From positions 528,706-592,705 of the forward strand of contig JAXHMJ010000002.1 in assembly GCA_034521575.1 (NCBI GenBank): a stretch of DNA of 64,000 nucleotides. Reading direction: 5' to 3'. Below the pieces are notes generated by a model, which was not told where the DNA came from, searched no databases, and saw nothing but the letters and a program-made list of their open reading frames with translations. Positions 1,869 to 56,084 of the stretch are shown here, piece after piece. Numbering within the stretch: position 1 is the stretch's first letter; each line of letters starts with the position of its first letter. The translations under genes were made by a program, and so were the position numbers. This DNA comes from a candidate division KSB1 bacterium. GTDB lineage: Bacteria; Zhuqueibacterota; Zhuqueibacteria; Residuimicrobiales; Krinioviventaceae.

Positions 1869-3239
1869 TTATATACGATGCGCCAGAGGATCGTTCTGTT
1901 TTTTTATCCAAATAGTCAAGTGCTTACGCAATTCGAGCATTGGTTTCTGATATTCCGTATATCCTGCCAGATTATTCAATTCAAACGGATCGTTTTGCAA
2001 GTCATAAAACTCTTCAGCCGGGCGCTTTTGGTATTTTTCAACCAGTTTGGCGACCTGTGGATTGGTTTCAGCCAGTTTTTTCCATTCTGCCCAGCACTGA
2101 TCCGCATCAATTCCGGAACAGCATTCACATCCCTCGGTAATTTTGTTTGTAAACAGGTTATCCGGCTGCAAATTTCGAATGTATTTGTAGCGTATTGAAC
2201 GGACCGACCGAATGGGGTATATGCCGCCGGATGTCACACCCTGGTGCGTATGGGCTCCATAGACAAATTCATGGTGTACGTTGGTTTCTCCATTTAAAAC
2301 CGGCAAAAAACTGCGGCCGTCCAGTTCCTGCGGTTCTCTGCCGCCGGCTGATTCGATCAAGGTCGGCAGCACATCGGCAAAACTCACCAGCGCTTTTGAG
2401 ACGGTAGCCGATTCAACGCGGGCCGGCCATTTAACCACAAACGGCACATTCAGTCCGGCATCATACAGGGTCCATTTGGCAAACGGCAATCCGGGGCCGT
2501 TATCGCTGGTATAAATGCACATCGTATCATTCTCCAATCCCGTCTCTCTGATGAGCTCGATATAGTCCCCGAGTTCAGCATCCATGTTTTGGACATTGGC
2601 ATAATAGGCCGCCACCAGTTGGCGCGTTTTGGGTCCGTCTACTATATAAGGAGCCAGCTGCAGTTCATCCGGGTCTATGCCTCCGGTTCTCACTGATTTT
2701 GGAAAGTATGGGGCATGCGGATCCCGGGTTGCCATGATCAGACAAAACGGTTGATTATGAGATTTTTGAAGAAATTCCTGTGCCTGATCTATGTGAATGC
2801 AAGTGAACGGAAAAACGGATTTTGGCTGAATGTCAAATTTACCGGCCAGTACAACTTTATATCCGAGCTCTGACAAATAATGCGGCAGACTTTTTACATT
2901 ATTTTGTGCACTACCGCCGGTCATATAAAGGCCGTGCCGATGCGGATGCAATCCTGTATATAATGTAGCTCTGGACGGCGGTCCCATTGCATCTAAAGTA
3001 AACATGTTGTAAAAACACATACCTTCCGCTGCCAAACGGTCAATGTGCGGCGTCTGCGCCGTAATATTTCCATAACAGCTGGTATCAAAAATACCGTGAT
3101 CATCCGATAGAAACAAGAATATATTCGGTTTATTTACAGCATTCGATTTTCTGCATCCGCCGGTCAATCCGAGTCCAATACCCAATGCCGTGAGACTGCT
3201 TTGTTTAATAAATTGCCGTCGTGTTGAACAGATCTTCAT
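1869..3239 (-). CDS. S1-family sulfatase homologue with Gly at the formylglycine position
   Basis: This 456-residue alkaline-phosphatase-fold protein has a Tat-type signal (TRRQFIK) followed by a lipobox (LTGGC), so it is a predicted lipoprotein. Metal-site and fold motifs are present: FLFLSDDHG near the N-terminus and YTSDNGPGLPFAKWTLY. The catalytic signature C-x-P-x-R, however, reads AMGPPSRATLYTG, with Gly86 (codon at 2982-2984, gga on the minus strand) where Cys or Ser is needed to form formylglycine. The homologue at 54705-56084 is alike along its length and reads AMCSPARAMLYTG. This protein therefore probably has no normal sulfatase activity, and a binding role or a different hydrolase chemistry is possible. 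The start is supported by AAGGG upstream. Confidence 0.85.
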   Translation of the reverse strand: MKICSTRRQFIKQSSLTALGIGLGLTGGCRKSNAVNKPNIFLFLSDDHGIFDTSCYGNITAQTPHIDRLAAEGMCFYNMFTLDAMGPPSRATLYTGLHPHRHGLYMTGGSAQNNVKSLPHYLSELGYKVVLAGKFDIQPKSVFPFTCIHIDQAQEFLQKSHNQPFCLIMATRDPHAPYFPKSVRTGGIDPDELQLAPYIVDGPKTRQLVAAYYANVQNMDAELGDYIELIRETGLENDTMCIYTSDNGPGLPFAKWTLYDAGLNVPFVVKWPARVESATVSKALVSFADVLPTLIESAGGREPQELDGRSFLPVLNGETNVHHEFVYGAHTHQGVTSGGIYPIRSVRSIRYKYIRNLQPDNLFTNKITEGCECCSGIDADQCWAEWKKLAETNPQVAKLVEKYQKRPAEEFYDLQNDPFELNNLAGYTEYQKPMLELRKHLTIWIKKQNDPLAHRI

Positions 3240-3304: not shown

Positions 3305-5552
3305 CTATTCTGACTCCCATATTGATTCCAATTCGTGCACCTGAAACCGGTTAAAAACGGCCTTTTTACCACGCACTTTTACAGCCAGTTTTTTTGATGT
3401 TGACTGATAACCGACAGGACAGGAATAGAGTCCGTGCTTTCCGAAAAACACCTCCACCAGTGTATGGTCAACAAGCACCCGAAGTTCAAGTTGCTTTGTT
3501 CCCGGAATCCTCATTTCATTCAGAGACAGACCATCATTTGTGACATTAATGACCAGGGCGGCACCGCGTACAGTCAGTTCAAGCTGTTCTGCATGCGACA
3601 GATCAGCCTGTATGTCAATATCATAGAGTCCGCCTTTGATCCCTTCCAGCGGATTCGGAGACTGTGTGTAAAGAGTCAATCCGTTCAATGAATGTGTATT
3701 TGTATAAAGATTGGCAATTTCCCTGACCGGCAGTCTGCAGAGCCGCAGACCAATCGGCGTCGATCGTAATTTCAATTCGGCAGCCATAGACAGCTGATTA
3801 CCCTTGCGGACCCAGGCGACCTGAATCCGTCGCGGCTGTCCGCTGTATCCCTTCGGTGTGTTGTTAAACGTTTGGGCGGCATACAAAACAGGTCTTGCAG
3901 ACATGTTCTGTCTGTAAAACATCGGGAGCTTTGCATCCGTTTGCGGCTTGAATACCTTGCCGTTAAATGTACCGATATGATAATCACCTTTTGAACCGTG
4001 CAGAATCCAGCGGATTCGATCCGGATCTCCGTCTATAGCCAGCGGAAACAGTTCGGGACATTCTCTGAGGTCGTTAACGCGGCTCTGTTCGGTCCAGTCT
4101 CTGAGGTTGTTTGAAGTGAATATTGTATGCCCGTTTTCCTGCCTGCGCTGATAAAGCACCATAACCCCAATGTCCATCCTTCGCGTCGGGATCGGGATCC
4201 ATGCCCCGGGTCGGGGAGTACCAGAATGTTTTGGGATCGCGGTTGTTGCAGGAGCCTTTTGCATAAATTTCATCTTGACCGATGACCGGATTGCCGTCAT
4301 ATTTGGTAAAAGTCCTGCCGCTGTCCGTGCTGTAGGCCAGGCACTGCATCTGAATTTTGTCTTTGCCGCCCAATCCGAGAGATGCCGTATAGGCGGCAAT
4401 CAACGGCGGAACCTCTCCTTGCTGCCAGCCCGAGGTGTTCATCACATCCAGGGCAGCAGAGCCGGAATGCATGGAGCCCATATCATCATGGAACAGTGCG
4501 ATCGGCCGTTCCTGCCAGTGTATCAAATCCGTACTGACATAATGTGCCCAGGAACAGGCGGTAATATTATACTTGTACTGGTGAAACAAATGGTAGGTGC
4601 CGTTCATATACACCAGACCGTTCGGATCATTCAGCAGTCCTAGCCGCGGATGGACATGCAAAGCTGGTAGCGTTTCAGATGAAATGCGTCCCGGGATGTC
4701 ACTCTGAACCAGTATTTGAGCAGAGGCTTTTCCAGGTTTAGGTCCGGAAAAGCTGTGAAAGCGTACGTTTAACTGTTCATCCTGATACCCGGTCAGATCA
4801 TATACCGGCAGATACCCGGCGAGCGGGATGGAACCGAAGGCGAGCGGCAGATCGGTTGTCAATTTATGCTGCCCGGCAATTTTCAAGGTCACGGACTGTA
4901 GCGGTGTACCGGCCAGAGGACCGACCGGCAGTAACAGAAAATCACCATCTATACGGATTTGAACAGAGTCCGGCAGCCAGCTGAAAGCGGATTGAATGAT
5001 CTTTGAATCTTTTGGGGGTGTTTTATCTGTGGCAACAATCCTGACACTGTCCAGAAAACCATTGGTATGATCATCCTTTACTGTAATCTTTGCTTTTTTG
5101 CCATTCAGAGGCCGGAGATCAAACCAGTAGGTTGCCGGCTTTTGCCCCTTTTTTTTAAAGCCCGAGCCCGGCTCCGGTGAACAAGATCGCACGCATGTTT
5201 AACTCACGATCAAGCGCACCGCACACCGGGTGGGATGATAAACCCCGGAACAGGTGACCCGTAAATAATCCGTAGTCAAAACAAATCCCGGTGAAATCAT
5301 CTCGCCGGTCTGGAATTGCTGCTGATTATCAGTAGGAACGGCCGCCCGCTGGCGCATCTCCGGATTGGGTGTCTGGGTGCCAAAGGCATAACCGCGCACC
5401 GTCCAGTCTTTTGGATGTGGATCAGCCGGCCAATCCAAAAAGAGTCTGTCCCGGGCTTGACTCATAGACGGCAAGATTCCGTTGATAAATAAAGTACACC
5501 ATAAAAGTCCGAAAAACATTTTCGATTTTTTTATTTTTAATTGACCTACCAT
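3305..5552 (-). pseudogene. GH32 fructan hydrolase (levanase/inulinase type), broken by a stop and a frameshift
   Basis: Three pieces together make one GH32 protein. The first (5199-5552) has a signal peptide and the N-terminal beta domain seen in secreted levanases (DWTVRGYAFGTQ, SPGFVLTTDYLRV). An in-frame TAA at 5199-5201 then interrupts it, and the same frame continues at 5192 with the rest of that domain and the five-blade propeller. That section contains NDPNG, with the nucleophile Asp near base 4628, and NRDPKTFWY. At 4165-4168, a run of four C on the plus strand, the frame shifts; removing one base restores HWVMVLYQRRQ. The last piece carries the acid/base motif ECPELFPL and the C-terminal sandwich (DHTLVEVFFG). 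All catalytic motifs survive, so the damage is recent or a sequence error. GH32 enzymes cut beta-fructans or sucrose, which is unlike the rest of this sulfate-rich locus. Confidence 0.8.
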
Positions 5553-54704: not shown

Positions 54705-56084
54705 TTATGAATTGTTTGTCCATTCTACAAGCAGGGGATCCTTCTGTTGGAGCATCCATGCTCGTAATTCTTTTCTGAGCGTTTTTAATTCATGTTGTCG
54801 TTCAGGATCATTGATGATATTACTCTGCTCATAGGGATCATTTTCAAGATCATACAGCTCTTCGGGCGGTCTGTGCTGATAATGGTTCATACGATCTGCA
54901 ATCTCCTGGTCGTTTTCCGCCAGACGCATCCATTCATACCAGGCTTCATCCGCATCAAGTCCGGGACGCGGACTGTGACCCTCTGTGATATTGTTTGTAA
55001 AGGTATGGTTTGGATTCAAATTAAGAATATATTTATATCTCGAGGATCGAACAGAACGGATCGGATACCTGCTGCCTTGCTTTATGCCTTCGTTGGTATG
55101 AGTGCCGTAAACATATTCTCGATGAGTTTTGGTATTACCTTTTAGCACTTTAAGAAAGCTTGAACCGTCCAGATTGCCCGTTACTTTCCCTCCGGCCATC
55201 TCTATAAAAGTGGGAACAACATCTGTGAATTGGCACATGGCATCTGTGACAGTGTTTTTACGGGTTACGCCCGGCCATTTCACGACAAACGGCACGTTCA
55301 ATGCGGCTTCATATAAAGTCCATTTGGCAAAGGGCAGGCCCGGGCCGTTATCACTTGCATAAATGAATACAGTCCTGTCTTCCAGGTTATGCTTTCGCAG
55401 CAGCTCCCGGCACTGTCCGACCTCTTTATCCATATCTTTGACTTTATTATAATAAGCCGCAACCATTTCCCGGGTATGCGGAGCGTTAATCAGATAGGGA
55501 GGTATTTTTATTTTTTCAGGATGATGTCCGCCTTCTGGTGGAGGCTCGGGAAAATAGGGGGCATGCGGATTTTTAGTGGCATAGATCAGGCAAAACGGTT
55601 GATCATGATTTCCGGAAATATATTCCTCTGTTTCTTCTTTCTCAATATATTCAAAGGGGAATACGCTTGCGGGCTCTACATGAATTTTTCCGGCCAGGAT
55701 GACCCGATACCCCAACGTTTTCAGGTAATGCGGTAAACTTTTAATATCCGCATTGGCTTTGCTGTGATTTTGATGCAATCCATTGCGATGCGGGAACAAT
55801 CCTGTGTAAAGCATAGCGCGCGCTGGCGAACACATCGCTTCTGCTGTGAACATGCGCGTGAAGCGCAGTCCCTCGCTGGCAAGTTGATCAATATGAGGTG
55901 TCTGGACCGTATCATTGCCATAGCACCCGGTTTCAAAAAGTCCATGATCATCGGATAAGAATAAAAATATGTTTGGCTTGTTTTTTTCTGATTTTTTACA
56001 ATGTATAGATACGCCGCTTAGACCGACAGCACAACCGAGGGCTGCGTTTTTTATAAATTTTCTACGTGTTGTGCAGACTGACAT
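54705..56084 (-). CDS. S1-family sulfatase, Tat-exported
   Basis: Start ATG 56084 is preferred to the ATG six bases upstream because AGAGGTG is better spaced. The Tat signal is TTRRKFIKNAALG. The signature EAMCSPARAMLYTGLFPHRN is intact (Cys85 from this start). FLFLSDDHGLFETGCYG and FIYASDNGPGLPFAKWTLYE complete the site. The protein is homologous along its whole length to the one at 1869-3239, which has Gly in place of Cys, including the CSGIDADQCW or PGLDADEAW segment and the ending around RKELRAWMLQQKDPL. The pair shows what the catalytic residue should be. The lipobox seen in the other copy is poor here (SIHC). Confidence 0.93.
   Translation of the reverse strand: MSVCTTRRKFIKNAALGCAVGLSGVSIHCKKSEKNKPNIFLFLSDDHGLFETGCYGNDTVQTPHIDQLASEGLRFTRMFTAEAMCSPARAMLYTGLFPHRNGLHQNHSKANADIKSLPHYLKTLGYRVILAGKIHVEPASVFPFEYIEKEETEEYISGNHDQPFCLIYATKNPHAPYFPEPPPEGGHHPEKIKIPPYLINAPHTREMVAAYYNKVKDMDKEVGQCRELLRKHNLEDRTVFIYASDNGPGLPFAKWTLYEAALNVPFVVKWPGVTRKNTVTDAMCQFTDVVPTFIEMAGGKVTGNLDGSSFLKVLKGNTKTHREYVYGTHTNEGIKQGSRYPIRSVRSSRYKYILNLNPNHTFTNNITEGHSPRPGLDADEAWYEWMRLAENDQEIADRMNHYQHRPPEELYDLENDPYEQSNIINDPERQHELKTLRKELRAWMLQQKDPLLVEWTNNS

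Follow-up and report, generated by a model that had tools for sequence, protein, structure and literature searches.

Formylglycine sulfatases of family S1 carry a catalytic residue, normally a Cys, that is turned into formylglycine. Of 4058 sequences in the SulfAtlas collection, 3202 are given as having Cys for a nucleophile and 857 as having Ser (PMC5066984), and for PVC sulfatases Ser was reported in 5 of 2040 (PMC6388578). As inclusion in SulfAtlas required the conserved Cys/Ser signature (PMC5066984), Gly forms would have been excluded. The members suspected there to be inactive, nine sequences from Lentisphaerae or Planctomycetes, have Ile or Leu in place of Arg55 (PMC5066984). The sulfatase-like domain of YejM/PbgA is non-enzymatic according to some, its activity being disputed (PMC7576196).

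Alkaline phosphatase variants S102G and S102A have no detectable activity and bind phosphate at least 1,000-fold more tightly, with the geometry of the phosphate unchanged (PMC3699461). For choline sulfatase, kcat/KM values of 4.8e3 (wild type), a bound of ~2e-3 (C54A; a drop of about six orders) and 2.6 (H104A) have been reported, together with a mechanism in which sulfate is released by base-catalysed cleavage of the hemiacetal (PMC5870055). The C77S variant of BT1636 was stabilised by 3 degrees by its own substrate (PMC12280919), and titles of PDB entries list sulfatase nucleophile mutants with bound sulfate or substrate (6ptk, C84A with sulfate; 6pt6; 6psm). Our literature search, which was limited to one library, found no paper on a natural sulfatase with Gly in place of the Cys. 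Here we describe a gene of this kind, P0001, in a 64,000-nt stretch of DNA from a candidate division KSB1 bacterium (hereafter, the window).

Results

A sulfatase-fold protein with Gly at the formylglycine position

Translation of P0001 yields 456 aa without stops or frameshifts, containing ...FTLDAMGPPSRATLYTG... The protein matches PF00884 at 8.9e-42 (143.9 bits against a cut-off of 25) and, like its paralogue P0002, also SGSH_C. Its sulfatase signature, AMGPPSRATLYTG, is in register with C-x-P-x-R and reads GPPSR, that is, the signature Arg (R90) is present and the Cys/Ser nucleophile of C/S-x-P/A-x-R is replaced. The first-pass annotation of this DNA had called codon 86 as gga, and both the translation and the window sequence (tcc on the + strand, gga on the − strand) agree with it. 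It had likewise given the homologue P0002 a Cys at this position, which the P0002 signature (...FTAEAMCSPARAMLYTG... / AMCSPARAMLYTG) bears out, the codon being TGT rather than TGC; since GGA and TGT also differ at two bases, the claim of two base changes from a Cys codon holds. The shortest path from TGT to GGA would run via GGT, implying a later silent change of the third base. Gly has no side-chain carbon to oxidise, and P0001 therefore cannot form formylglycine. Provided that the sequence is right, loss of sulfatase catalysis by formylglycine chemistry is close to certain.

Table 1. P0001, its catalytic positions and neighbouring genes, in window coordinates
Feature	Position	Strand	Evidence
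PhoD-like phosphatase family gene, next downstream of P0001	300..1805	−	family match
P0001, sulfatase-fold protein with Gly at the formylglycine position	1869..3239	−	PF00884; uninterrupted 456-aa ORF; model pLDDT 80, pTM 0.84
P0001 codon 255, Lys of the sulfate pocket, kept	2475..2477	−	alignment
P0001 codons 246-247, Asp-Asn of the metal site, kept	2499..2504	−	alignment
P0001 codon 175, second active-site His, kept	2715..2717	−	alignment
P0001 codon 136, GAC (Asp) in place of the GKxH His, second catalytic residue lost	2832..2834	−	His in 94/96 relatives
P0001 codon 134, Lys of GKx[H], kept	2838..2840	−	alignment
P0001 codon 90, AGA, Arg of C-x-P-x-R, kept	2970..2972	−	alignment
P0001 codon 86, GGA (Gly) replacing the Cys normally turned into formylglycine	2982..2984	−	sequence and alignment
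P0001 codons 46-47, Asp-Asp of the metal site, kept	3099..3104	−	alignment
P0001 N-terminal twin-arginine-like leader (TRRQFIK ... GLTGGC)	3150..3239	−	by eye, no signal predictor
GH32-like gene, next upstream of P0001, read in two frames (frameshifted)	3305..5192	−	family match, frameshift call
P0002, closest paralogue (55% identity) with Cys and GKIH, presumably active sister	54705..56084	−	alignment, tree

A second altered catalytic residue in an otherwise retained active site

The earlier description of the gene as otherwise intact, with its metal-site motifs, is supported by the uninterrupted ORF and by the presence of both ligand pairs (Asp46-Asp47 and Asp246-Asn247), together with Arg90, Lys134, His175 and Lys255. 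Within GKx[H], Lys134 is kept and the His is replaced by Asp136, the aligned motif reading GKFD in P0001, GKIH in P0002 and GKFH in a relative from another genome of the phylum (G052). Asp136 had gone unmentioned in the first-pass annotation. In SulfAtlas the GKxH His is only 81% conserved (PMC5066984). Asp occupies this position in six sulfatase rows of the same genome, P0001 included, and as some of these are of the Cys type, Asp alone is no mark of inactivity. Going by motif, C54 and H104 of the Sinorhizobium choline sulfatase would, in our own correspondence, match positions 86 and 136 of P0001. We take the GKxH His to be the base for hemiacetal cleavage; if so, both the nucleophile and the base serving it would have been lost.

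In the AlphaFold2 model of P0001, built from 11 sequences, residue 86 lies at the start of a helix. Its best fold matches in the PDB are human sulfamidase (4miv) and S1_8 lambda-carrageenan sulfatases (query TM 0.70-0.80), and the best PDB sequence matches are 9bes/9bb9 and 4mhx, so that P0001 may be called S1_8-like. The geometry of the pocket is a prediction from sequence. With a catalytic residue lost and the predicted fold retained, the protein fits the description of a pseudoenzyme.

Constraint on P0001 compared with its sister

P0001 and P0002 were placed as sisters in a quick tree (SH-aLRT 99), with end branches of 0.65 and 0.49, respectively. At columns at least 98% conserved in relatives, P0001 departs at one of 24 (C86G) and P0002 at none of 24; at columns at least 95% conserved, the departures are three of 44 (C86G, H136D, P196A) and one of 44. 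Relaxing the cut-off to at least 80% gives 12 of 86 and 8 of 86, a difference that is not significant (Fisher p 0.48). Since these departures are in line with the branch lengths, P0001 is not generally decayed; the alignment thus suggests no general relaxation, with the active site standing out. By a post hoc hand calculation, the chance that at least two of the three departures fall on catalytic columns (8 of the 44) is ~0.08.

Over 452 codons, the two paralogues differ at 185, 97 and 271 first, second and third codon positions, respectively. In a neutral simulation that ignored indels, the share of runs that ended with a stop-free gene was 32.6% at 2% divergence and 5.9% at 5%. As so few stop-free genes survive, only a short neutral past is compatible with P0001. 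Judged by the three departures in 44 columns, P0001 could have evolved neutrally for up to about 0.2 changes per site (hand estimate).

Rarity of Gly among relatives and genomes

Relatives were drawn from 397 Planctomycete genomes of one class, 175 of which had a match at E<=1e-95; of the 96 used, 30 were the top loci, 6 stemmed from the first two genomes and another 60 were taken by place from about 150 listed. Cys is found in all 95 that have the column, the remaining one being a fragment without it, and the GKxH His in 94 of 96, the two exceptions having Asp. Within the genome of P0001 itself, the census at the nucleophile column counted Cys in 55 rows, Gly in 2 and Thr in 1. The row with Thr belongs to a distant member that also lacks the Arg, and one of the Gly entries, P0003, was set by hand, as the profile alignment had slipped the next Cys into the column.

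A strict DNA pattern (G-x-P-[ST]-R-A-[ST]-[LIMF]-x-T-G and near codons) matched twice in 82 genomes of the phylum, both times in the same genome (P0001 and P0003); being narrow, it would miss Gly sulfatases with other flanking residues. Its Cys version matched 14 times in that genome and 118 times elsewhere in the phylum (summed, not each checked). The Gly share of strict-motif sulfatases is hence 2/16 there and 0/118 in the other 81 genomes, with p 0.013 for a hypothesis formed after both cases had been seen. In the 397 Planctomycete genomes the Gly pattern gave five matches, none of which is a sulfatase on reading: translated over 60 codons, each of the five matching frames contains a stop, and one (L154) lies over a SecA-like ORF.

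Close orthologues of P0001 were equally scarce. Among 60 relatives at E<=1e-60 only P0002 and one relative of 37% identity (in G052) were found, at E<=1e-70 across 63 genomes of the class and 82 of the phylum (overlapping sets) only P0002, and a search of genome_contigs yielded just two distant Planctomycete loci. P0001 is thus a singleton, no Gly orthologue having been found in the genomes searched. The first-pass annotation had proposed to see whether Gly forms a conserved clade among homologues; with Gly confined to P0001 and the unrelated P0003, we reject such a clade on the present sample.

The relative in G052 (L046, on contig C633) is the nearest Cys-type sulfatase in the phylum outside the own genome. 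It adjoins ORFs that resemble, by eye, glucosamine-6-phosphate deaminase and N-acetylglucosamine-6-phosphate deacetylase, hinting at a sulfated amino sugar as substrate.

Other atypical sulfatases in the same genome

About 60 sulfatase-domain genes are encoded in the genome. A second Gly sulfatase, P0003 (L025:948-2615; G000:C3:239447-241114, +), had not been noted in the first-pass annotation. It belongs to a different, unrelated subfamily, reads SRGCPTR with the codon GGC, keeps GKWH and adjoins a GH94 gene, an MFS transporter and another sulfatase. All 14 of its relatives read RCCPTR or KCCPTR, a uniformity that is partly by choice, as they were taken from Cys-pattern matches and the own genome. 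Of 126 columns that do not vary among the others, P0003 differs at 14, while its sister differs at 7 of 119 (p 0.17); the branch of P0003 is 1.32. As a single base separates it from Cys, P0003 is more likely than P0001 to reflect an error or a recent loss; given this and its many other changes, it is at most a candidate for a second clean pseudoenzyme.

A further sulfatase ORF (L043:988-2175; G000:C5:1917987-1919174, −), which encodes 396 aa including a Tat-like leader, lacks the whole catalytic C-x-P-x-R segment, apparently through an in-frame deletion. By contrast with the frameshifted genes, the sulfatase at G000:C2:782032-783636 stays in one frame and is interrupted there by the stops TGA and TAG; it is a likelier true pseudogene.

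The genome also encodes a maturase: one anSME exceeds the cut-off (399 bits), and there are matches to PF03781 (FGE family). Maturation of the Cys-type enzymes is thus to be expected, which is of no use to Gly. One FGE-family gene (G000:C5:2588141-2588886) is split across two frames with a stop.

Genomic setting and frameshifts

The window is a polysaccharide-utilisation island with sulfatases, PhoD-like, GH32, GH95, GH78, GH127, GH92 and GH2 genes, as well as a heparinase-like gene, a TonB-type receptor, a PorV-like protein and a Por secretion tail. Probable frameshifts in its genes, several of them sulfatases, lie at window positions 4176, 14413, 17988, 42674, 44038, 54413 and 57314.

Across the genome, a stop or a change of frame interrupts about 18 of the roughly 60 sulfatase genes on our reading, many of the breaks having no run of five equal bases nearby. 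A frameshift-aware coding model called 7 events in the window (about 59 kb coding), in sulfatases and other genes alike, and 58 events (8 at stretch ends) in 325 kb called coding from 20 stretches of 20 kb each, the absolute rate being rough, as the caller also flags stretch ends and overlapping genes. With a similar rate in random stretches, the breaks would seem to belong to the assembly or genome as a whole, be they long-read errors or real, and gene decay specific to sulfatases is not supported. The first-pass annotation had regarded single Gly cases next to pseudogenes as speaking against its proposal: Gly is indeed rare and several neighbouring sulfatases are frameshifted, but so, at a similar rate, are random stretches.

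Discussion

We favour the reading that P0001 is a Tat-type, S1_8-like pseudosulfatase that would bind a sulfated glycan without turnover, and put its probability at roughly one half (0.52). As engineered nucleophile mutants hold their anion or substrate, a sulfated ligand should, by analogy, also be held by a naturally occurring Gly form whose pocket is intact. A Cys-type sulfatase ancestor common to P0001 and P0002 would have been duplicated, after which C86G would have cost P0001 its formylglycine precursor and H136D the GKxH His, with the metal site and the sulfate-holding residues retained. Exported by means of its twin-arginine-like leader, the protein may hold a sulfated glycan uncleaved in the sulfate pocket and might so benefit the cell as a binding or capture protein within a large island for the utilisation of sulfated polysaccharides.

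The main rival to a binding role is recent pseudogenisation: P0001 would be a redundant copy that lost catalysis by chance and whose remainder has not yet decayed, the conserved columns then merely reflecting an active past. Redundancy is plausible with P0002 and some 50 other sulfatases remaining, Gly is absent from all relatives found, and the same genome holds P0003, the segment-less ORF and the many split sulfatase genes. We nevertheless consider this unlikely, if a serious contender: P0001 is uninterrupted throughout, its conserved columns are retained in proportion to branch length, the silent third-base change seems to postdate the change from Cys to Gly, and frameshift calls are about equally common in random stretches and in the window. 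The number of such calls genome-wide could also raise suspicion of a sequencing or assembly error at codon 86, which we judge very improbable, as the faults of this assembly are mainly changes of frame, whereas the Gly codon needs two substitutions within one codon, is accompanied by the alteration of a separate catalytic residue (H136D) and has its pattern at just two places in 82 genomes.

Two further roles would leave P0001 functional. Many sulfatases are oligomers, and P0002 is encoded in the same island with the same type of leader, so P0001 could act as a regulatory or structural partner that modulates or stabilises an active sulfatase such as P0002; the two genes are, however, about 51 kb apart and in separate operons, making this improbable. 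The first-pass annotation had suggested a retained non-sulfatase role, either as a binding protein or as an unrecognised hydrolase. The intact ORF, kept metal residues, constraint and lost nucleophile point to the former. For the latter, a metal-activated water would have to replace formylglycine, and the retained metal ligands, Arg, Lys and His175 would be in keeping with such a route, but the GKxH His is also gone and the nucleophile variants of alkaline phosphatase (PMC3699461) and choline sulfatase (PMC5870055) lose their activity, so that we find continued hydrolysis hardly credible.

A broader and rather doubtful conjecture is that, in sulfatase-rich degraders, duplicated sulfatases repeatedly become tight receptors for sulfated glycans by a one-codon step from Cys to Gly, doing away with the repulsion of bound sulfate by formylglycine; the genome would then hold two independent cases, P0001 and P0003. 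Sulfatase counts serve to infer the degradation of sulfated polysaccharides from genomes, and domain matches alone count genes like P0001 as enzymes. Should P0001 prove to be a binder, nature would have produced its own counterpart of the nucleophile-free mutants that structural studies employ, and the protein would test whether removal of the nucleophile turns an enzyme of the alkaline phosphatase superfamily into a high-affinity anion binder in nature.

Compared with S1 formylglycine sulfatases (S1_8-like: 4miv, 9bb9/9bes), P0001 has the same predicted fold, PF00884 and SGSH_C domains, metal ligands, Arg, Lys and His, and differs by Gly for Cys/Ser and by Asp for the GKxH His of its own clade. 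The laboratory mutants likewise lack the nucleophile and still hold anion or substrate (alkaline phosphatase S102G; sulfatase C-to-A/S in 6ptk, 6pt6 and 6psm), but they are engineered, whereas P0001 is natural, and alkaline phosphatase binds phosphate, not sulfate. YejM/PbgA, a membrane protein, keeps a Thr nucleophile in most members. The putative inactive sulfatases of SulfAtlas resemble P0001 in being natural homologues whose possible inactivity was deduced from the loss of a catalytic residue; in them it is the Arg that was lost, in P0001 the nucleophile, with the Arg retained. P0001 would be a pseudoenzyme in a family where such cases had been suspected for another residue, the Arg.
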